Part shown: piece by piece, positions 51,991-63,824 of the stretch
Layout of the letters: the number at the start of each line of letters is the position of its first letter
How positions within the stretch are numbered: position 1 is the first letter of the stretch
Source of the DNA: Candidatus Aminicenantota bacterium
GTDB lineage: Bacteria; Acidobacteriota; Aminicenantia; Aminicenantales; Saccharicenantaceae
Direction of reading: 5' to 3'
Assembly: GCA_026393975.1 (NCBI GenBank)
Contig: JAPKZD010000016.1
Span: 62,001 to 126,000 of the forward strand
DNA length: 64,000 bases
Program-made: the position numbers and the translations under genes
The notes under the pieces: model-generated
Told to the model about the DNA's origin: nothing
Seen by the model: the letters and a program-made list of their open reading frames with translations, nothing else
The model's database searches: none

Positions 51991-53112
51991 TTAGAGCATG
52001 GCCAGGTCGACATACGGTAGGGACGTGTCGATCTGGCCCTCCGCGAGGAGAGAGGGGTCGTTCGAGAAGAGGACGATGTCGGAAACCGTCGACTGCCCCA
52101 AGAACCTCTTTGTCGCCCGGAGCAGAGGGTCCTGGCCGCAGCTGCCGACGATCAGCAGGTTATATTTCTTTTGCGAGCAGTCATTATGGACCCTCGACAG
52201 CAGGGCCTCCAGGATCTCGGGATCCCTGCCGCGGGCGGCGCAGTCGATGACCGTGGCGTCCCTGGTCGTCCCGCCCTCCTTGGGCAGCGGGGGAAAATCC
52301 AGCAGGGCGGCCGCGGCCGCGTGCGCGCCCCTGAGCCACTTGAGTCTCCACCCGTAGCGGACGATCCGGTTCTGCTTCAATCCCCCTGTGTCCCAGGCCG
52401 CGCACGTCCCGACGACCTCGCCGCCCCGTTCCGCGACATAGTAACGGGAAAGGTCGCATCCGGGCCTGGCGGCCAGGTTGCGGAGAAACGATTCCCTGTC
52501 GACGACCGGGGCGAAGAGCCGAGCCCGGAACTCGTCCCGAAGCAGCGCGACCATGGCGTCCACATCGGAGAGTTCCGCGCGCCGGACCCGGTATCCGTCG
52601 CTCTCTCTCTTCCGCCCCATGACCAGGATGCTCTTCGCGCGGAGCGTCGCGATGACCTTGGAGCGGGGGAGGTCCAGCTGGTCGGGTCCGTTCCTGCCGA
52701 TGAACCTTCCGGCGGCCCGGTTCCCCGTCATGACAATGGCGTAGCCCAGGATGCACTCTCCGCGCATCTCCCTTGAGAGACAGCTCGCCGCCCGATAGAA
52801 GAATCCCCGTCGTCGGGCCTCCTTTTTGACGTGCACGTTTCCGAAATAGGCCACGGTCCGGGGCATCCCATTGACGAGCCGGCGCTGGAACATGAGCATG
52901 GCGAAGCCGGCGAGGCTCGCCCCGCGGAAGAAACCGACGCACTCCAACCGCTCCGAGAAAAGACGCGGAATCGCGAAAATGTCGGGCTGCCTGTCGAAGA
53001 CGACACTCAGCCCCGGGGTTTCGACCGGGGTTTCACCGAGGATTCGGAGCATCTCCCAGTTCCACTCCCGGGAGATCTTTCTCAGATGATACTCCTCCGC
53101 CGCGCTCGTCAT
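51991..53112 (-). CDS. tandem GNAT-domain acyltransferase-like protein
   Basis: A 373-residue protein with two GNAT-like halves. The first contains YFGNVHVKKEARRRGFFYRA, with the V...R-x2-G acyl-CoA loop. The second starts YRVRRAELSDVDAMVALLRDEF and includes YYVAERGGEVVGTCAAWD. Double-GNAT proteins may transfer acyl groups to amines. It is the last gene of the aminolipid-like operon; its ATG overlaps the stop of the BtaA-like gene by 4 nt. An N-acylation step on the product is a reasonable guess, but donor and acceptor are unknown. Confidence 0.78.
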   Translation of the reverse strand: MTSAAEEYHLRKISREWNWEMLRILGETPVETPGLSVVFDRQPDIFAIPRLFSERLECVGFFRGASLAGFAMLMFQRRLVNGMPRTVAYFGNVHVKKEARRRGFFYRAASCLSREMRGECILGYAIVMTGNRAAGRFIGRNGPDQLDLPRSKVIATLRAKSILVMGRKRESDGYRVRRAELSDVDAMVALLRDEFRARLFAPVVDRESFLRNLAARPGCDLSRYYVAERGGEVVGTCAAWDTGGLKQNRIVRYGWRLKWLRGAHAAAAALLDFPPLPKEGGTTRDATVIDCAARGRDPEILEALLSRVHNDCSQKKYNLLIVGSCGQDPLLRATKRFLGQSTVSDIVLFSNDPSLLAEGQIDTSLPYVDLAML

Positions 53113-54188
53113 CGCAATTCCATGACCACGAGGTTATAAAAGGGAAACCGGTCGGACCTGACGAGCTCCTCGCCGCGGTCGTCCCGCCGGACGAGGCGCT
53201 CCCACAGCGCTTCCGGAAGCGGATGGTCCAGATGGATATAACGGGAAATCGCTAGGCTCGACGGTGCGGCCTTCTCGCAAACGAGCGCCACCAGCCTGGC
53301 GTACTCTTCGAGGCCCATCCAGTCGCCGATGTTGGACAGGTGGAACTTGTTGAACCTGCCCGGAGGGCTCTTGTCCACGGCTTCCTGATAGGACTCCAAC
53401 CGCCACGCGATGCTCGCGTGGTTTTCCCGGACCCGCCGCAGCCCCTCTTCAGACAAGTACTCGGGGAGCGCTTCGGGAAATAGGACGCGTCCGAAAAAGC
53501 AGAATTGGAGGTAGGGATTCTTCCGGGCCGGGGTCGCGGCGCAGAAATCCCGGAACCGGCCGTAAAAGAATTCCGCGATGTCGCGCTTTCCTCCGTGCCG
53601 GAGCCCTTCCTCGGCGATCCCCCGCTTGTGGTAAAGGCGGGGATGGAACGCCACTTTGAAGAGGACCTTCAGAAGGGCCGTGCTCAGATGCCGGTCGAAG
53701 TACTCCTGCCGGGCCGCGACCGTGTCCTGCTCGAAGAGGCGCCTCAGCTTTCTTTCCCCGAGGACCGCCAGGGCCGCGGGACTGAACCGCCCGAGGTATC
53801 TCTCGAACCGGCCGGCGCGGATAGGGCCCCTTTCGACGGCGGGCATGTTCGCCGCCCAGAAGCCCTTCTCGTTGTCACCCAGGAAGGCTGCCGTCCGGTC
53901 GAAAAGACGCCTTCGTTTTTCGGCCGAGGCGTCCATGAAACCCAGGAGCGCGGCCGCCTCGAGCGGCTCCAGGGCCCGGCAGGCGCCCAGCTTCAGCCGG
54001 CAGAGAAAAAGCTGGGCCGGAGAAATGTCGACCGCCTCGATCGCGATGGGCCCTAGGGCGAGCAGGTTGAGCGGGACCTCCCCGGCGCTGGCGACGCAGA
54101 GCAGGCGGTCGCCCTCCCGGATCTCGAGCGCTCGCCGCTCAGTCAGGGCGTCCTCCTGGGAGATGCCGTAGTTGTAGGGAGGTTTCAT
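53109..54188 (-). CDS. BtaA-like (DUF3419) SAM 3-amino-3-carboxypropyl transferase
   Basis: A 359-residue protein resembling BtaA, which moves the 3-amino-3-carboxypropyl group of SAM to diacylglycerol in betaine-lipid synthesis. Matching features are a SAM-binding start (EGDRLLCVASAGEVPLNLL), IEAVDISPAQLFLCRLKLGA, and the C-terminal HLSNIGDWMGLEEYARLV. There is no BtaB methyltransferase nearby, so the product may not be methylated, or the acceptor may differ. The ATG at 54188 overlaps the megasynthase stop (ATGA), and the stop overlaps the GNAT start. The longer upstream frame runs antisense-like through the neighbour and is rejected. Confidence 0.72.
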   Translation of the reverse strand: MKPPYNYGISQEDALTERRALEIREGDRLLCVASAGEVPLNLLALGPIAIEAVDISPAQLFLCRLKLGACRALEPLEAAALLGFMDASAEKRRRLFDRTAAFLGDNEKGFWAANMPAVERGPIRAGRFERYLGRFSPAALAVLGERKLRRLFEQDTVAARQEYFDRHLSTALLKVLFKVAFHPRLYHKRGIAEEGLRHGGKRDIAEFFYGRFRDFCAATPARKNPYLQFCFFGRVLFPEALPEYLSEEGLRRVRENHASIAWRLESYQEAVDKSPPGRFNKFHLSNIGDWMGLEEYARLVALVCEKAAPSSLAISRYIHLDHPLPEALWERLVRRDDRGEELVRSDRFPFYNLVVMELR

Positions 54189-57100
54189 GACGTGCGTACC
54201 GACCGAAAACCTTCGATCGCCCCCAGTTTCTCGAATAAGCCGAACTTTTCCGCCCCTGCCGTCACGGCCTCGATCGCGCGCGCGGTGATTGTCCCCTTGA
54301 GGGGGACGTCGAGAGGTTCGAGTCCGCAAAGCATGGCCTCGCCGGCGCAACAGAACGTCGTGCCCTTCGGGGTGTGCGAGCTGATCACGAAATCCGGGTC
54401 GTCCGGCAGAGTGACGTAAGAAGCGAAGGGGAGGGCCGTCACGTTAAGCATGCGGGCCACCCCGGGGGCCAGCGCCGAGGGGATGGAAACATCCGCGATC
54501 ACCACGGGGGCCCCGTCCTTGATGTGGTGGGGGAAAATGATCGGGTCGTTGGTGTTGGTGGCCACGGCGATGACGTCGCATTGTTTGAGCGGGGCGAGAT
54601 CCGCGGCCAGTTCGAGCGTCCCCGGGAAATTCCCCCGGTCGAGGCCGGCGGCGAAGGCTTCGAGCTTCGCTTTTTTCCTGTCCATCAGGACGGCCCTGCC
54701 GAAGAGGCCGTCGGTCCTGATCAGGCATTCCGTGACGATGGAGCCGATGTTCCCGGAGGCCCCGACGACGCCCAGTGTCAGCTTCGCGCGCCCCTGCCGC
54801 AGCTTCCGGATCTCCTCGCCCAGACGGCGGAGGCCGGAGGCAGCCGTCAGCGTGTTCCCGGTGACGATCCTCGCCCCCTCCGGCTCGACGAGCCCGAGGC
54901 CGTTGCGGCTGAGGATCGACGCGTATCCGCCCAGTCCGATCACGGCGGCGCCGCCGCGGGCCGCCATGTCGACGGCCTCCTGGACCTTGGCCACGACCCG
55001 CCGTCCCTTTCCCAGCCGGTGCAGGCGCTCGAGCTCGGCCGAGTCCGCCGCCAGGATGATGAAGCTGAAGTGGACCCGGCCGCCGAACAGGTTTTTCGAA
55101 AAGAGGACGAACGGCTTCATCTCCATCACCGCCTGCAGACGGTTGAACAGGATGCGGAGGCCGGTGTCCGAGGCCCGGGCGAAGTCCTTCTCCATGATCC
55201 GGAGCTCATCGGCCGGCCGGCTGAAATGGGCGATGAAGGCCACCCGGACGGCCCTGTCCGCCGGTTCGTCGAGCCGAGAGGGAAGGACTCCCGGGCGCGC
55301 TTCCTTCCCCTTGTTGTCGTCGAAGGGGTCGCCGTCCATGAGGGGCAGGCAGAGCTCGTAGGTCCGCCTCTCCTCGATCCTTCGGGCCAGCTCTTCGAAC
55401 GCGCCGGCGACCCGGCCGATCTCCTCGTCCGTGATATAGGCGGAGGGCTCGACCCTCAGGGTGTTCGGCGCGGACAGCGTCGGCAGGGCCCGGACGCGGA
55501 ACTGCCGGAGCAGGTAGGACGAGAAGAGATAGCCGGCGACCTCCCGCCCGGCGAGGGCCCGGAGGGTGATGTTATCGCTTTTCGAGAAATCCCTGAAGCG
55601 GACCCCCAGCATGAGCCCGCGGCCGCTGACCTCCTCTATCACGGAGGGGAAGGCCTCCCGGACGGCGTTCAGTTTCTCCAGGAGCTTGGCTCCCTGCCGG
55701 GCGGCCCGCTCGGGCACCCGGTCGCTCTTGATGACCGACAGGGCCTTCAGCGCGACGCGCGCCGCGAGACCGCCATTCGAAAACGTCGAGACGTAGTATT
55801 TGCCGAAGTCCTCCTGAAAGCGCTTCTTGTCGACGAGCAGGGCCGAGATCTTTTCGATACCGCCGCCGAGGGCCTTCCCGAACAGGTAGTAGTCGCCGGC
55901 GACCCCTTGGGAAGCGAGGAAGGACCCCGTCCGGCCCAGGCCGCACTGGATCTCGTCGATGATCAATGGGAAAGCGTACTCCCCAAGGCGGCCGAGGACT
56001 TCCGGGTTGACCGCCCTCACGCCGCCTTCGCCTATCACCGGTTCGACGATGGCCGCGACGACCGTGCTGACGGCGAACTCCTCCAGGCGCCATTCGCCCC
56101 CGTTCGGGGCGGCGATCCTCCGGAGCTTGACCCGGGCGCCGGCCAGGCCGCGGTCGAGCCCGTCCTTCCAGTCGGGCGATTGATCATCGACCGGGATGCG
56201 TTCGAAGCCCGTGATGTTGGCGAACGGGCGGCGCTGTTCGTCGTTTCCGAGCAGCGAGCGGGGGCCGGAGGAGTTGCCGTGGAAGGCGTTCTTCAGCGTC
56301 ACCACGCTCAAGGGGACATCGCGGAGGGCCTTCCTGTTCTCTTCCCAGACGAGGGCCAGCCGGCTTCCGGCCTCTCCGCCGAACTGCTGGAGCTCGTCCT
56401 GTTCCATTTTCTCCAGCTTCTTCCGCCATTCCAGGGCCGCGTGGTGGAGGGCCATCTCGACGGCCTCCGACCCGGAGGACGCGAACAGGACGCCGTAGTC
56501 CCGCCCCGTCGTCTCGCCCACCGTCGTCGCCAGCTCCTCCGCCAGTTTCGCGGCGTGCTCCTGGATGCTCGCCTGGTCCGACAGCGGGATATCGTCGGCT
56601 TCGAGAAAGGCGGCCGCGGCCGCCTTGAGGGCCCCGTGGTTGTGCCCGAGAAGGTTCGTGCCGTAGCCGCCGACAAGATCCAGGACCTCGACCTCCCGCC
56701 CCTCTTCGAACGTGAACAGGGAGTCCTTCTTGGCCCTGTGGTAGGTGTGGTCCATCCGGAGCCCGGCGAGCATGCCCCCGACATAGGGATTGAGGACGCG
56801 CGTGAACCTCTCCGACGCGAAGCGCTCGTCCCCGCAGGCCTCCACCCCGGGCGGCAGGGACTGAGGGTCGGTCAGCCCGGCGATGGTTTCCCGGCAGCCG
56901 GCCTCGATCCCGGATCGAGAGACGTTGCCTTTTTTCGTCCTGGGCACAGTCCCGGCGGCCAGGGCCAGCCTCCGGATGATGCGGTGCCGGAATTCGAACG
57001 GCTCCAGGTCCTTAAAGAGCCGGGCGTTCGTCCCGGCGACGAGCCTCGAAAACTCGCCGAGGGCGCCCTTGTCGATCACCGTTACAATCGTCTCAGGCCC

Positions 57101-58627
57101 GCCGGCGACGAAGACGAGGGCGGCCAGCCCGGGACTGTCGCGCATCGGGAAATATTCGACATGGATGGCCTTCCGGTGGAGGGCGGCATAGTGCTTCTTC
57201 ATGGACGCGAGCGGGATCTTGACGCCGAAACCGTCCTTGATGAAATCGAGCCCGTCCCTCCCGATATAGACGAGCCTGTCTCCGTCCGCTAGCTGGACGA
57301 TGTCGCCCGTGTCGAGGAACCCTCCGGCGGCATCGGCGCCCGCGGCCTCCCCGAGTATGGACTTGCAGCCGAAGGGCGATTTCACGTAGAGCCGGTAAAG
57401 GCTGGGCTCCTCGGGCATCTTCATTAGCCCGACGGCCACGCCCGGGAGGGGCCATCCGAGCGACTTGCGGTCGTCCTCCGTGGCATCGTCGAAGAGCACG
57501 GTGCTCAGCACCTGTTGGGTCTCGGTCATCCCGAAGGCGTTATGGAGGGAGAGGCCGAGGGCCGATTGAACGGCCTTGGCCGTTCTTCCCTCGTCGCGGG
57601 CGCCGCTTATGACGACGGTTTTCAGGCTCGCCTTGAGCCGGTCTTTCATCTCGGGGAAGTTGCGCATCAGCTCCAGCAGCAGATGGTATATGGCGGGTCC
57701 TCCGGTGACGTGTTCCGGCATCATCCGGAGGAGGAAATAGCGGACGGTTTCGGGTTTTTCCTCGAACCACTCCGTGTTGATGAGACACACGGGAGACCCC
57801 GACCACAGGGCGTTGAAATAGGCCCGGATCCCCATCGAGTGGGTGAACAGGGGCGTGAACCCGCGGCCGCCCAGCTTGTCGGGCGCGTAGAAGCCCGCTT
57901 CCTGCCAACTCAGGCAGTTCCGGATGAAGGCGCCCTGTTCGTAGACGACGAGCTTCGACTTGCCCGAGGATCCGGACGTCGTCAGCACCAGGGCTTCGGT
58001 CTCAGGCGCCGTCGCGGCAATGGCCTCCGCGACTTCCGGGTCGGGAGGCGCGCCCGGTACGGCGTCCGGCATGTCGCGGTAGAGTCCATCACGCAGTCCG
58101 AAATCCTCCAGGGGGTCGTAGCAGGGCAGCCCCTTCCTGAGGCCGGCCGCCTTGATGTCCCGGACGATCGTCTTTTCCTTGTCGTGGCCGTCGAGGGAGG
58201 CGATGTCCCGTTCCGGGACGATGACGGCCGCGCAGCCGGCGAGGTCGAGCCATTCTTCGAGCGGCCCCGTTTCGACGAACATGGGGAGAAGGGTCCTCAC
58301 GCCGTAGGCCGCCAGGGCGGTGAACGTCAGCGCGGTGAACAGCTCGTTCCCCCCGGAAACGGAGGCCAGCAGGACCGTCGTCCCGGGCCGGATGCCCTTC
58401 TTCCGGAACTCGCCGAACATCCGGGCGGTGACGAAACGGAGCCGCCGGAGGGAGACGCGGACGAGCGTGGGGCCGTCATGGCCGATGATCACTTCGCTCC
58501 GCTCGTCCCGGTGGGCCAGTTGCCGGAAAAGAAGGGCGGCTAGGTTCGGGACGGGCAGGCCCGGGAGGTCCCGTTCCGAGGCCAGGATCCTGTCGAAGCG
58601 TCCGTCCGCTTCCGGGGGCCTAGGCAT
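54185..58627 (-). CDS. ANL ligase / class-III aminotransferase / AAR-like reductase fusion
   Basis: A 1480-residue three-domain protein. Residues 1-575 are an adenylate-forming ligase: P-loop TTSGSSGKSK (216-225), AFGMTET (364-370), DTGDIV, KDGFGVK and a C-terminal catalytic-Lys region RTKKGNVSR. Residues 600-1090 are a class-III PLP aminotransferase: SSGSEAVEMA (717-726), DEIQCGLGRTG (891-901) and PLP Lys918 in LFGKALGGG. Residues 1125-1480 resemble cyanobacterial acyl-ACP reductase: AVIGLGGYASIL, VTGNTLTA, Rossmann VVGASGNIGS (1287-1296) and FCCAGEAML with Cys1427 at the thioester position. No carrier domain is seen. It could turn a fatty acid into an aldehyde, then an amine. It overlaps both neighbours. 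Confidence 0.82.
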   Translation of the reverse strand: MPRPPEADGRFDRILASERDLPGLPVPNLAALLFRQLAHRDERSEVIIGHDGPTLVRVSLRRLRFVTARMFGEFRKKGIRPGTTVLLASVSGGNELFTALTFTALAAYGVRTLLPMFVETGPLEEWLDLAGCAAVIVPERDIASLDGHDKEKTIVRDIKAAGLRKGLPCYDPLEDFGLRDGLYRDMPDAVPGAPPDPEVAEAIAATAPETEALVLTTSGSSGKSKLVVYEQGAFIRNCLSWQEAGFYAPDKLGGRGFTPLFTHSMGIRAYFNALWSGSPVCLINTEWFEEKPETVRYFLLRMMPEHVTGGPAIYHLLLELMRNFPEMKDRLKASLKTVVISGARDEGRTAKAVQSALGLSLHNAFGMTETQQVLSTVLFDDATEDDRKSLGWPLPGVAVGLMKMPEEPSLYRLYVKSPFGCKSILGEAAGADAAGGFLDTGDIVQLADGDRLVYIGRDGLDFIKDGFGVKIPLASMKKHYAALHRKAIHVEYFPMRDSPGLAALVFVAGGPETIVTVIDKGALGEFSRLVAGTNARLFKDLEPFEFRHRIIRRLALAAGTVPRTKKGNVSRSGIEAGCRETIAGLTDPQSLPPGVEACGDERFASERFTRVLNPYVGGMLAGLRMDHTYHRAKKDSLFTFEEGREVEVLDLVGGYGTNLLGHNHGALKAAAAAFLEADDIPLSDQASIQEHAAKLAEELATTVGETTGRDYGVLFASSGSEAVEMALHHAALEWRKKLEKMEQDELQQFGGEAGSRLALVWEENRKALRDVPLSVVTLKNAFHGNSSGPRSLLGNDEQRRPFANITGFERIPVDDQSPDWKDGLDRGLAGARVKLRRIAAPNGGEWRLEEFAVSTVVAAIVEPVIGEGGVRAVNPEVLGRLGEYAFPLIIDEIQCGLGRTGSFLASQGVAGDYYLFGKALGGGIEKISALLVDKKRFQEDFGKYYVSTFSNGGLAARVALKALSVIKSDRVPERAARQGAKLLEKLNAVREAFPSVIEEVSGRGLMLGVRFRDFSKSDNITLRALAGREVAGYLFSSYLLRQFRVRALPTLSAPNTLRVEPSAYITDEEIGRVAGAFEELARRIEERRTYELCLPLMDGDPFDDNKGKEARPGVLPSRLDEPADRAVRVAFIAHFSRPADELRIMEKDFARASDTGLRILFNRLQAVMEMKPFVLFSKNLFGGRVHFSFIILAADSAELERLHRLGKGRRVVAKVQEAVDMAARGGAAVIGLGGYASILSRNGLGLVEPEGARIVTGNTLTAASGLRRLGEEIRKLRQGRAKLTLGVVGASGNIGSIVTECLIRTDGLFGRAVLMDRKKAKLEAFAAGLDRGNFPGTLELAADLAPLKQCDVIAVATNTNDPIIFPHHIKDGAPVVIADVSIPSALAPGVARMLNVTALPFASYVTLPDDPDFVISSHTPKGTTFCCAGEAMLCGLEPLDVPLKGTITARAIEAVTAGAEKFGLFEKLGAIEGFRSVRTS

Positions 58628-60542
58628 TTTCGGACCTCCGCGTTCCCTTGGAGTCCAGCATCCGCACCAGGACCGGCAGGAGGATGCAGTCCCCGGCCAG
58701 CCCGGCGGTCAGGGTCGCCAGGCTCAGAATGCCGAAATACCGGATCGGCGGAGACGAGGCGAAGAGGAATACCGAAAACCCGACCGAGAGGATCGCCATC
58801 GTCAGGACCATGCCGGGGGCGGTTTCGCGGAAGGCCTCACGGAGGCCGCCGGTTTTTTTGTACCAGAACAGGAGGTGGAAGGTGTTGTCCACGAGGATGC
58901 CGAGCATGAGACAGCCGATGGGTACGGTGGCCATGTTCAGCGTCAGCCCCGACCAGCCCATCAGGCCGATGACGCAGGCGACGGGAATGGCATTAGGGAG
59001 GATGGACGCGGCGAACAGCCGCGCGTTCCTTAGAAAGGCGGCCATGACCAGGAAGATCAGCGCGAAGGCGAGGGCTAGGCTGCTCACGAACGCCTTCTTG
59101 AGCTCCTCGGCGACGACTGCGTACAGGGTCACATAGCCGTTGACGCTCGGCCGGACGCCCGGCATCTTCGCCGCGGCCAGGACGGCGATCCTGTCCGCGA
59201 GCGCCAGGCCCCCGCTGGTCGAGAGCGTCGGGATGAAGAACGTAACGCGTCCCGTGCGGCCGTCCGGCGACACGTACTGGGACTTTGGCCGTTCCGAAGA
59301 GGGAAAGCTGAGATAGCTCACCGCCCCGTCGACCTCGTCGAGCTCGAGGACGGCCGATATCCAGCCGTTGAGCTCACGGGGGTCGGCCTTGTCGATCTCG
59401 AGCGTGTATTCGAGGGGGACGTAACGGCTGACGTTGCGCTCGACGAAATGGTGGTCGACGACGCGCGAGTTGGACGGGGAAATGATATCGAGGCTGTAGA
59501 TGTCGGCCTTGAGCTTCAGGATGCCCGGAACCATGGCCGCCGCCACGCCCAGGAAAATGAGGAGGATCGACGGCCGCGAAAAGACCGGGAAACGCCGGAA
59601 GAAGCGCTCGATGTCGGCGCGCGGCTCGAAGGCGTAACGCTTGGGGAAAAAGAGGAGGAGGGCCCAGGCGAAGCCGCCGGCGATCCCCGCCGTCCCGAGA
59701 ACGGCGAAATCCTTCAGGAGCGGGATGCGGCTCGGCCAGAAGGTAATGAAACCGATGGCCGTGGTCAGGACGGCCATGAAGCAGGGCGCCACGACCTTCC
59801 GGAAGTCCCCCCGGTGGAACAGGACGTGGAGCGAGCCGGACGTGCCGTAGAAAAGGACGAGGACCGGGAGGATCACCGTGACCATACTGAGGGGGATCCG
59901 GAAGACCGCCGCCGCGAGCAGGAGCGTCGAAACGCCGCCGGCGGAGACGCCCATGGTCATCAGGAAGGCCTTGGTGCTCTTCAAGACGAGCAGGAGGAGG
60001 GCCATCAGGAAAAGCAGGCCCAGGCCGATGAAGGAGAGGGTATATTTTTGCGTTTCCTCGTTGATCGCTTCGTGGAGCACCCCCGTGCCCGCGAGATGCG
60101 ATTCGAGGGGGACGTCCTTCAACAGGTTCCGGACGGCCTTCAGGAGTTCGGGCCGGTTGGGATTCAGACGGGAAGGCGGCGTGAACGCGACGATGAAGAC
60201 GGAGATGCTCTTGTCGAGGCGGCGTTTCAGACGGTAGACGGGGGGCGGATAAACCGAGACGCCGTCGACGTCCGGGAGCTCCGTCAGCCGGTCCCAGATG
60301 ACCATCAGCGCGTCGCGGGCCTCATCGCTCTCGAATCCTCCGGGGTCGCGGAGGACGACCAGGAGCGCGGCGCCGCCGCCGAATTGCTCGAGGAAATCCC
60401 CGTAGCGGGCGATTTCCGGCGACGAGGGCGTCACCCATCGTTCGAGGGAGTTTTCGACCCTTATTTTCGGAAGATAGAGCACCAGGAGGACGATGAATAC
60501 GGCCGGGACCGCGATGCGAAAGGCCTTCACGAGCTTGTCCAT
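58620..60542 (-). CDS. RND/MMPL-family exporter
   Basis: A 640-residue membrane protein with two repeats of one helix, a periplasmic domain and five helices, about 12 helices in all. This is the compact RND/MMPL type seen in lipid and hopanoid exporters. Features are TLSFIGLGLLFLMALLLLVL, VILPVLVLFYGTSGSLHV, and in the second half NMATVPIGCLMLGILVDNTFH, the conserved helix-4 motif with Asp. First gene of the operon; its stop overlaps the ligase-fusion start by 8 nt. Coupling to lipid-modifying genes suggests export of their product across the inner membrane. Confidence 0.82.
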   Translation of the reverse strand: MDKLVKAFRIAVPAVFIVLLVLYLPKIRVENSLERWVTPSSPEIARYGDFLEQFGGGAALLVVLRDPGGFESDEARDALMVIWDRLTELPDVDGVSVYPPPVYRLKRRLDKSISVFIVAFTPPSRLNPNRPELLKAVRNLLKDVPLESHLAGTGVLHEAINEETQKYTLSFIGLGLLFLMALLLLVLKSTKAFLMTMGVSAGGVSTLLLAAAVFRIPLSMVTVILPVLVLFYGTSGSLHVLFHRGDFRKVVAPCFMAVLTTAIGFITFWPSRIPLLKDFAVLGTAGIAGGFAWALLLFFPKRYAFEPRADIERFFRRFPVFSRPSILLIFLGVAAAMVPGILKLKADIYSLDIISPSNSRVVDHHFVERNVSRYVPLEYTLEIDKADPRELNGWISAVLELDEVDGAVSYLSFPSSERPKSQYVSPDGRTGRVTFFIPTLSTSGGLALADRIAVLAAAKMPGVRPSVNGYVTLYAVVAEELKKAFVSSLALAFALIFLVMAAFLRNARLFAASILPNAIPVACVIGLMGWSGLTLNMATVPIGCLMLGILVDNTFHLLFWYKKTGGLREAFRETAPGMVLTMAILSVGFSVFLFASSPPIRYFGILSLATLTAGLAGDCILLPVLVRMLDSKGTRRSENA

Positions 60543-60579: not shown

Positions 60580-60668
60580 CGGAGTTGTCATAAAGATGTC
60601 AAGATTCGGTCAAAAGGGCGTTAATTCCCGCACGGGGCGCAAGTTCGCTTTGATGAGCGGGGCGGCCG

Positions 60669-61649
60669 CTAGCGGGAAGCGACGGCCAGGGCGAGGTTGA
60701 GACGGGCCCGGGCCGCGGCGCGGTCGGGGTCGCCCAGGACGAGAGCTGCGACGGCGCCCTTGCCCTTGAAGAGGAACCAGCGCCCCGCTTCGTTCTTGCC
60801 CTCGAGCGTTTCGCCTTGGCGCCGGACGTCCTTGAGATACTCCCTGAAGACGGCCAAGACAGCGTCATCGAGGGCCTCGGCCTCGGGCGCTTTTCTGAAT
60901 TCGACGATGACCAGCTTGGAAACGGCGGGAGCGACGCCGTACTTGGCCGAATAGGCCTCGGTTGCGCTGTCCGTTGTGCCGAACCCCCAAAACGCGGCTT
61001 CGAGAACTGGCGATTCGCCCTGGGCCGCGAGCGGGCCCTTGATGTATCGCCCGCTTCGGGCAACCATGCCGTCGCGTGGAAGCCACGCCATGCCCATTGG
61101 CCGGACCGTCTCTTTCCCCGGGATCTTGGTCTCGATTGCCGCGGCGAACTCCCCGATCTCCCGGTCTGAGCATTCCGGGGCCAGGATGTTGACCATGTAT
61201 TCGCCCTTGACGAGTCCCCCCTGTCCGGGGCTGACCCAATGGTCCGACTCGATGCCCGGCCGGCCCTCTTCCTCGCCCTCGAGCTTGGTCGAGTAGATGC
61301 CGAAGGCCGCTTCGCCCGATTCCATGCGGTAGATCTCGAGAACGACCTCTTTTGTCGTTGGCGCGACCCTTGCCGGCTTGAACTTGAAAACCGCGAGCTC
61401 GCGGAAGCCGTACTGGAGGACGATCTCGGCTCCGCCGTCGATGTAGCCGTAAAGGCCGTCCTTCGTGTAGGTCTCAACGCCGCCGTCCCGAGTCCAACCG
61501 GGGATCCCGTCCACGGCCCGCATGAGGGCGGGCTTATCTTGAGCGGTGGGGAAGCTGGCGCTGTCGCCGGGCCGGGCGGCGTTCCCTCTGGAGCAGGCCG
61601 CGGCGGCAAGCAGGACGGAAACGGCGAGGACGCCATATTGGTGGGTCAT
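60669..61649 (-). CDS. DUF6599-like lipoprotein
   Basis: A 326-residue lipoprotein (VLAVSVLLAAAAC lipobox). The mature part matches the DUF6599 pattern: GIPGWTRDGGVETYTKDGLYGYIDGGAEIVLQYGF (read in parts), EIYRMESGEAAFGIYS, and a second similar half. The family is of unknown function and common in Acidobacteriota-type genomes. It lies 126 nt upstream of the RND exporter gene on the same strand, so it may or may not be in that transcript. Confidence 0.75.
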   Translation of the reverse strand: MTHQYGVLAVSVLLAAAACSRGNAARPGDSASFPTAQDKPALMRAVDGIPGWTRDGGVETYTKDGLYGYIDGGAEIVLQYGFRELAVFKFKPARVAPTTKEVVLEIYRMESGEAAFGIYSTKLEGEEEGRPGIESDHWVSPGQGGLVKGEYMVNILAPECSDREIGEFAAAIETKIPGKETVRPMGMAWLPRDGMVARSGRYIKGPLAAQGESPVLEAAFWGFGTTDSATEAYSAKYGVAPAVSKLVIVEFRKAPEAEALDDAVLAVFREYLKDVRRQGETLEGKNEAGRWFLFKGKGAVAALVLGDPDRAAARARLNLALAVASR

Positions 61650-61937: not shown

Positions 61938-63824
61938 CTACCTCTCGATCGAGCCGATGTCGCCCATCGTGCCGTTCGGCCGGGCGTTGCCGCGCTGGTC
62001 GGTCGTTTCCATCCTGAACGGCTTCGTGTTCCTCGTGACCGTGATGCTAACGTGATTGCCGAGCGGTCCTGTCGTGAATGTGCCCCAGAAATTGTCTCCG
62101 AGGATGGCCATGCCGAGCCTGTTCCCGATGGCGGTGTCCAGGTTGTGCCAGAATGCGATCCAGGCGGCGTTCTGTGCGTTCGACGGCCAGGTCACGGCCG
62201 GGCCGTACCAGGTCGTTCCGGTCATGTCGCCGAAGCTCGAGCCAAAATCGCTCCCCAGGATCGTGCCGTATTGGGACCTCAGCTGAAGGATGACGTAGTT
62301 CAGGAAATCATCCGTGGGCCCGCCGAAGCCCGAGTACCCGGCGTTGACGTAGGTGATGCTGTATTCCTGATTGGGGATCTTGTCGGCCGCCAGGTCGGCC
62401 GGGGGATACCAGAGGATGGCCGGCTGGCCCGCGTCCGTCCCCGCCGAGAGGACGGAGCCGTGGTAGTGGGCGCCGCTCACGTTCAGGGCGTCGAGGAGGG
62501 CGACCCCGTCATGGTCGCCGACCTTCGGCCAACGCTTGCGGCTGGACATCATCCAGTCGGGGACAGGCACGAGGATCCAGCTGAAGTCGACAACCCCGAC
62601 GAGGTTGTAGCCCTGGCTGTAGAAATCGAGGATGGAGCCCGCGTACCAGTCCTCGGCGGCGCCGTTCAGCGTGTTGCCGACGACGACCGAATTCTGGAGC
62701 CAGACGGTCTCCACGGTGTGGGCGTTGCCGACGGTGGCACATCCACCCCCGCCGCCGATGTTCGGCTTGCCGCTGAAGATCGCCAACTCGCCCGTGACCG
62801 CGTTTTCCGCGATGGTACAGCCGGACATCCAGAGCGATCCGCCGCCCATGTAGACGCCGCCGCCGCGATCGTACCACTGCCCCGCATTGGGGAAGTCCGG
62901 GTGGTCCTGGACGAGGTTCCGGGCGATCGTGCAGTTCGTCAGAAACATCGTGGCCAGGTTGTTCGGCCCGCCGGACAAGGTAAATATGCCGCCGCCGTAG
63001 GCGTGCTGGGCGGTGACCCGGTTGCCGCTGATCGTGCACCCCCTCAGGGACGCGTCGTTCCCGAGGCGGCCCGTGTTGTCGCCGCCGCCGACCGAATAGA
63101 TGCCGCCGCCCCCGGCCCCGTAGGCGATGACCGAATTGCCGCTGATGACGCAGTCGTTGAGGTCCAGACCGTTGGCGTAGATGCCGCCGCCGTAGGTGCC
63201 GCGGTCCCGGGCGGACCCGGATTCGCCGAAGCAGGTGTTGCCGGCGATCGTGCAGTCGGTGAGCCTCGCCGTCCCCCAGACCGCGAGACCTGCTCCCCGG
63301 GCCAGAGTGTAGGACTGGGTCCCGCCCGTGATCGCCTCGGCGACGGAATAACCGGAAGAGATGGTCACGTTCCTCATGGTCAGGTCGCCGTAGACGGCCA
63401 GGACCCTGGCATGGCTCGTACCGCCCCCGTTCCATTTGAAGGTGATCCCGTTCGGCAGTGCCGAGGCGTCGATGGTCAGGTTCTTGTCCGCGTAGAGGGC
63501 CGATTTGCCGTAGTCCCGCTCTTGATAGCCCGAAAACGTCATGCCGGAGTAGACCTCGCCCTTGAGCGTCGAGTGTTCCTCGGCCACGATGGTCAGCAGG
63601 ATCGTCTCGCCGTCGAGCGACTCGTCGAAGGTGATCGTGTCGCCCGCACCGGCCGCCTCGATGGCCGACCTGAGGGTCATCGTGCCGCTCGGCGGAGCGG
63701 CGTTGTCCTCCAGGGAATTAACGACGAGCCCTGGATTCGGCGTATTGTCGTTCGTAGCGCAGCCGCCGGCCAGAAGGACCAGGGCCAGTGGAAAGACCCA
63801 AAGCGTCGGACGCGTGCGTTTCAT
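61938..63824 (-). CDS. right-handed parallel beta-helix lipoprotein
   Basis: A 628-residue lipoprotein (VFPLALVLLAGGC). After a CSLREA-like start (VNSLEDNAAPPSGTMTLRSAIEAAGAGDTITF, read in parts) come repeated beta-helix coils (LTDCTIAGNT, LNDCVISGNS, LRGCTISGNR, LTNCTIARNL, MSGCTIAEN) with Gly-rich GGGIY turns. Such proteins often bind or cleave polysaccharide or act as surface adhesins. No catalytic motif of a known lyase was recognised. The C-terminal ~170 residues are not repetitive. AGGAGA precedes the ATG. Confidence 0.85.
   Translation of the reverse strand: MKRTRPTLWVFPLALVLLAGGCATNDNTPNPGLVVNSLEDNAAPPSGTMTLRSAIEAAGAGDTITFDESLDGETILLTIVAEEHSTLKGEVYSGMTFSGYQERDYGKSALYADKNLTIDASALPNGITFKWNGGGTSHARVLAVYGDLTMRNVTISSGYSVAEAITGGTQSYTLARGAGLAVWGTARLTDCTIAGNTCFGESGSARDRGTYGGGIYANGLDLNDCVISGNSVIAYGAGGGGIYSVGGGDNTGRLGNDASLRGCTISGNRVTAQHAYGGGIFTLSGGPNNLATMFLTNCTIARNLVQDHPDFPNAGQWYDRGGGVYMGGGSLWMSGCTIAENAVTGELAIFSGKPNIGGGGGCATVGNAHTVETVWLQNSVVVGNTLNGAAEDWYAGSILDFYSQGYNLVGVVDFSWILVPVPDWMMSSRKRWPKVGDHDGVALLDALNVSGAHYHGSVLSAGTDAGQPAILWYPPADLAADKIPNQEYSITYVNAGYSGFGGPTDDFLNYVILQLRSQYGTILGSDFGSSFGDMTGTTWYGPAVTWPSNAQNAAWIAFWHNLDTAIGNRLGMAILGDNFWGTFTTGPLGNHVSITVTRNTKPFRMETTDQRGNARPNGTMGDIGSIER

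Follow-up and report, generated by a model that had tools for sequence, protein, structure and literature searches.

A conserved four-gene cassette in Aminicenantia with a candidate pathway for an exported aminolipid

In the tambjamine YP1 pathway of Pseudoalteromonas tunicata, TamA and TamH together accomplish ANL activation, thioester reduction, and transamination (PMC9594044, PMC5939613). TamH, in which the aminotransferase domain precedes the reductase domain, converts fatty aldehydes (C7–C14) to amines, and PtTamH coupled with the ANL-ACP protein TamA converts fatty acids to amines in a cascade (PMC9594044). PigE of prodigiosin synthesis also combines a reductase and a class III aminotransferase in one protein (NF053554; PMC8341465). 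Among lipid head-group pathways, the BtaA/BtaB route to betaine lipids (DGTS) supplies the only characterized role for the DUF3419 family found in the papers searched, aminolipids of the OlsB/OlsA type (ornithine, glutamine, and glycine lipids; PMC11631085) involve N-acylation of an amino-acid head group, and lipid exporters of the RND type include HpnN, MmpL, and HAE3. In the current study, we compare these systems with a four-gene cassette from a 2.9 Mb metagenome-assembled genome (MAG) of Candidatus Aminicenantes, located within the 64,000-nucleotide stretch of DNA that was analyzed (the window). Its features are as follows.

60542..51991, minus strand: four-gene cassette in the order RND, FUS, BTA (DUF3419), GNAT
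58620..60542, minus strand: RND-superfamily transporter, 640 aa, 12 TM-like segments, weakly HAE3/MMPL-like; proposed exporter
54185..58627, minus strand: FUS, a fusion of ANL, class III aminotransferase, and acyl-thioester reductase (AAR) domains, 1480 aa
56828..58627, minus strand: ANL (adenylating) domain of FUS, aa 1-600, with TSGSSGKSK, FGMTE, and DTGD motifs
55343..56827, minus strand: class III aminotransferase domain of FUS, aa 601-1095, PLP lysine K918 (FGKALGGG)
54188..55342, minus strand: acyl-thioester reductase domain of FUS, aa 1096-1480, GxxGxxG at 1289-1295, C1427
53109..54188, minus strand: BTA, a DUF3419 (BtaA-family) protein resembling SAM-dependent 3-amino-3-carboxypropyl transferases, 359 aa, divergent clade
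51991..53112, minus strand: GNAT-type acyltransferase, 373 aa; proposed N-acyltransferase

All four open reading frames are free of stops on translation, with BTA starting at the ATG at 54188 rather than at the TTG at 54350. The RND and FUS genes overlap by 8 nt, the ATG of FUS lying over the RND stop with a GGAGG upstream, and the FUS/BTA and BTA/GNAT junctions are each a 4-nt ATGA overlap; an earlier, sequence-only reading of the window had reported a four-gene set with overlaps of 8, 4, and 4 nt, and the junctions agree with it. The domain functions agree with that reading, although its "double-GNAT" label holds in Pfam for the N-terminal half of the protein, the second half being GNAT-like by eye only.

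A search for the same gene order in other genomes recovered the four genes in two of them, G026 (L014) and G039 (L013); these loci and the window have none of their flanking genes in common. The cassette proteins are 49–74% identical among the three genomes, and dN/dS lies between 0.07 and 0.40 in all pairwise comparisons of the cassette genes, a rough guide because dS is near or past saturation for several pairs. Since order and content are kept while the flanks are not, and dN/dS is in this range, the arrangement is not due to chance, and the expectation of a conserved, co-inherited cassette is borne out. Strong matches to the reductase domain (full or partial) were obtained in 4 of the 142 genomes of the class, and close DUF3419 relatives in the same four, the fourth being a sister genome (G004, 94% identical) whose contig is incomplete. 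For every one of the four genes, the window copy resembles that of G039, which belongs to a different family, more closely than that of G026, which belongs to the same family as the window genome; this conflict with host taxonomy implies that the set moves as a unit and indicates horizontal transfer of the whole block. No empty site was found in the genus: a single contig was informative, and it stops shortly beyond the flanking gene, where its sequence differs. Over the DUF3419 protein, JADBLN010000014.1 (an Acidobacteria MAG) is 94% identical and JAFGAV010000122.1 (a Candidatus Aminicenantes MAG) 68%; the scan of genome contigs gave two loci only, and other phyla were sampled through plasmids only. 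AAR homologues elsewhere in Acidobacteriota were set aside: none has a DUF3419 or GNAT gene of the window type close by, and all but one also lack a neighboring aminotransferase.

FUS matches the AMP-binding (E 2e-21) and Aminotran_3 (E 1e-46) families, and its C-terminal domain matches the S. elongatus AAR (6jzq; profile, E 6e-13), with C1427 aligned to the catalytic C294 of that enzyme. When the C-terminal profile was compared with the PDB, cyanobacterial acyl-ACP reductases ranked first and the PigE-type aminotransferase 4ppm next. C1427, the GxxGxxG motif (G1289-G1295), and K918 are invariant across the three copies. FUS scores 45.9 bits against the AAR family TIGR04058, under the curated cut-off of 449.7, and its top-scoring NCBIfam model is that of PigE (NF053554), at 225 bits, which misses the cut-off of 850; PigE differs in its reversed domain order and in having no ANL in the chain. 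FUS has the aminotransferase-reductase order, catalytic Cys, and GxxGxxG of TamH together with the ANL of TamA, and is thus like TamA and TamH in one chain, minus the ACP: no ACP domain was found in the chain, nor by motif any ACP-like gene within the window, where motif matches were judged not ACP-like. Also unlike the tambjamine system, the cassette has no bipyrrole genes, and DUF3419 and GNAT genes come after the fusion. The predicted acid-to-amine conversion therefore matches TamA/TamH and is not new chemistry. The sequence-only reading had described it as running from fatty acid via aldehyde to fatty amine; motifs and domain order agree with TamH, but "fatty" is not settled, given the Leisingera fusion described below, and the A10 lysine of the ANL domain is missing.

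BTA is a clear member of PF11899 (E 6e-46; 157.8 bits against a cut-off of 28.2) and shares with BtaA the DUF3419 domain with its SAM-binding region. In the tree, however, the window protein and its two counterparts fall in a separate, divergent clade, set apart by a very long branch of 2.07 changes per column and lying outside a 100/100 group of seven canonical BtaA rows. Canonical BtaA loci (L025, L099, L100, and L102) carry the methyltransferase gene btaB next door, whereas the window operon has no BtaB and a GNAT in its place. This GNAT matches only PF13527 and PF00583 (Acetyltransf_9/_1) in Pfam and not PF13444, the domain of the OlsB family. The proposed N-acylation of an amino-acid head group is the likeness to OlsB/OlsA-type lipids, but the cassette has no OlsA/PlsC, and in the pathway put forward here SAM would supply the amino-acid part and an amine the other chain. 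In four Aminicenantia genomes (L129:7313-9426, L130:7784-9792, L131:6607-8609, and L132:6360-8363), relatives of the GNAT directly adjoin a lipid kinase of the DAGK/YegS type, which supports a lipid setting. The transporter resembles RND lipid exporters in its 12-TM architecture (two repeats and two large loops; TM-like at 4, 169-344, and 486-629 by hydropathy) and has weak HAE3 and HpnN matches, but it is short and lies under all family cut-offs (best NCBIfam match, HAE3 TIGR00921, 51 bits against 351.9), with no MMPL match in Pfam.

Gene content, motifs, conservation, co-inheritance, and the recurring association of DUF3419, GNAT, and exporter are directly observed, and from them we tentatively propose that the cassette encodes a pathway, complete in itself and spread by horizontal transfer, to a lipid or lipid-like molecule built on an amine. 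The ANL domain would activate a carboxylic acid, with a fatty acid as the most likely substrate, through acyl-AMP to acyl-CoA or acyl-ACP; the AAR domain would load the acyl group on C1427 for NAD(P)H-dependent reduction to the aldehyde; and the PLP domain would transaminate the aldehyde to a primary amine, these last two steps running as in TamH. The DUF3419 protein would then transfer the 3-amino-3-carboxypropyl (acp) group of S-adenosylmethionine, between amine formation and N-acylation; as a fifth step the GNAT would acylate the alpha-amino group of the transferred unit, in the role that BtaB has for betaine lipids; and the RND protein would finally move the product out of the inner membrane. 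We infer every substrate (which acid is activated, fatty or aromatic, what accepts the group transferred by DUF3419, and what donates the acyl group), the order of the fourth and fifth steps, and the product, for which an aminolipid is a promising prediction. Sequence searches of the PDB returned no relative of the DUF3419 protein and, for the GNAT, only a chance match to ribosomal L19, and AlphaFold models of the two, built from alignments of two rows, were of poor quality, with mean pLDDT of 47 and 40, and so lend the proposal no structural support.

Each chemical step has a precedent, and none was found for the combination: the literature search, with subscription-only papers outside its scope, returned no description of this four-gene set. 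The earlier statement that no described pathway has this set is accordingly upheld for the whole, but not for the acid-to-amine half, which is known from TamA/TamH (PMC9594044). A more specific version, slightly less likely than the pathway itself, is that the mobile cassette makes a new class of aminolipid, an N-alkyl (from the fatty amine), N-acyl 2,4-diaminobutyrate. On this view the BtaA relative would have exchanged diacylglycerol for an amine as the substrate that it alkylates, and a GNAT would stand where BtaB normally acts; more widely, DUF3419, GNAT, and exporter would form an unrecognized lipid-head-group module in Aminicenantia. Such a pathway would extend DUF3419, known in the searched papers from betaine lipids only, to a setting in which it works alongside an acyltransferase and has an exporter of its own; it would place the whole acid-to-amine conversion in one polypeptide, which is useful for biocatalysis too; and a membrane lipid as its product would mean that an uncultured group of bacteria makes a lipid class that is both new and free of phosphorus.

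Cassettes without the fusion bear on the acceptor of the DUF3419 protein. Locus L128 (G084) has RND, DUF3419, and GNAT genes in the order of the window, its MMPL-type RND homologue holding the same position next to DUF3419; G061 has a closely related RND gene followed by a shortened DUF3419 gene; and L017 (G058) has an ABC permease/ATPase, DUF3419, and GNAT with a 4-nt overlap, the window and L017 GNATs being homologous over 283 columns. Other Aminicenantia DUF3419 genes are fused to a PEMT domain and have another GNAT-type gene downstream; on contigs that extend far enough, a PLP decarboxylase and a MacB-like ABC exporter come next. The recurrence of DUF3419 with an acyltransferase, often with an exporter, points to a recurring module to which the fusion is an addition, and supports acylation of the transferred unit; the acp transfer, N-acylation, and export of the sequence-only reading fit this recurrence, with and without the RND type of exporter, but their order and product are still proposals. 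That homologues might occur singly in unrelated contexts largely fails, as L128 and L017 keep DUF3419 and GNAT with an exporter, though the fusion is absent. The GNAT and DUF3419 trees do not distinguish insertion of the fusion into an L128-like cassette from separate assembly of the cassettes.

Because L128 carries no amine-forming enzyme, DUF3419 and GNAT do not depend on an amine in every host, and the DUF3419 protein may act on another acceptor, e.g., diacylglycerol. An unlikely but credible alternative is thus that it works like BtaA to give a homoserine ether lipid, with the GNAT acylating the head group, the RND protein exporting the product, and the fusion independently making an amine that serves the same function in the envelope. 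BtaA being the sole characterized precedent in the papers searched fits this alternative, as do the DAGK genes adjoining the GNAT relatives, which also lie near other DUF3419 genes. However, in three genomes the fusion gene lies between the RND and DUF3419 genes, and in the window its codons overlap those of both neighbors; the long DUF3419 branch fits a changed acceptor; and no enzyme is present that would join the two products. The placement of the fusion and the branch length support an amine as the acceptor.

The acid itself may be other than fatty. The closest fusion of the same content elsewhere is encoded on Leisingera plasmids (L022:7520-14928, NZ_CP109791.1; and L162), where a LolA-like gene, an AT-AAR-ANL fusion of 1395 aa, and an MMPL transporter gene follow one another. 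The same three domains, in a different order, were thus joined independently beside an RND exporter. Its neighbors, pabB and hydroxybenzoate monooxygenase genes, form an apparent aromatic-acid cluster, and its ANL domain is benzoate-CoA-ligase-like (259 bits), so it may serve a different acid, and a fatty acid is not settled for the window fusion. The FUS aminotransferase domain is closest to CrmG (in the PDB), an enzyme of caerulomycin synthesis, and to PigE, and the best structure matches of the ANL domain are coronafacate ligase and EntE, which do not settle its subfamily. Nicotianamine-type metallophores, moreover, use acp transfer to amines. A small specialized metabolite from an aromatic or otherwise non-fatty acid, such as an N-acp amine with a metal-binding or signaling role exported by the RND protein, is nevertheless doubtful: among characterized relatives of the reductase-transaminase pair, TamH uses fatty-chain substrates (PMC9594044) and the S. 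elongatus AAR is a fatty acyl reductase, and the other cassette genes are associated with a lipid kinase and MMPL/HAE3.

The ANL domain keeps its ATP-site motifs, intact and conserved in the copies, but its A10 motif reads P-x-T-x-K-G-[N/T]-V-S-R, with the canonical lysine replaced in all three copies (N, N, and T), so that adenylation of an acid is likely but not safe. It is about equally doubtful that this domain has no adenylating role and only aids thioester capture or is structural, the fusion taking ready-made acyl-CoA or acyl-ACP, since an invariant lysine (K566) stands two residues before the A10 position; such a role would be compatible with the proposed amine pathway. It is highly improbable that unrelated genes simply happen to be neighbors here, or that the cassette is decaying and functionless: in G004 (L012:610-2085) an in-frame TAG interrupts the DUF3419 gene at codon 248 and most of the GNAT gene is missing, through either decay or assembly error, but purifying selection and an order shared by three genomes with unrelated flanks already disfavor this reading.

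Several further loci were recorded. One Aminicenantia cluster (L018:4443-11980, L153:547-7918, L154:1010-9416, and L015:8910-11868) contains a DAGK-like gene, a PEMT-DUF3419 fusion, and a GNAT-type gene with a short overlap, in addition to a PLP decarboxylase, a class II aldolase-like gene, and a MacB/FtsX ABC exporter, and looks like another uncharacterized lipid head-group pathway. In two Acidobacteriota clusters (L095:2733-8743 and L094:946-9312), DUF3419 is accompanied by an acyl-CoA dehydrogenase, an AMP-binding plus PP-binding protein, and KASIII, with a LuxI-type autoinducer synthase also present in L095. A Rhizobium plasmid operon (L024:3-6143, CP041205.1) encodes KASIII, an epimerase-type NAD protein, a metallo-beta-lactamase-fold protein, a CoF synthetase, DUF3419, and an unassigned protein. 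Upstream of the cassette in the window lie an open reading frame of 345 aa with no family assigned (60599-61636) and one of 628 aa on the minus strand (61938-63824), the C-terminus of which weakly matches choice-of-anchor Q; L013 and L014 share neither of them.
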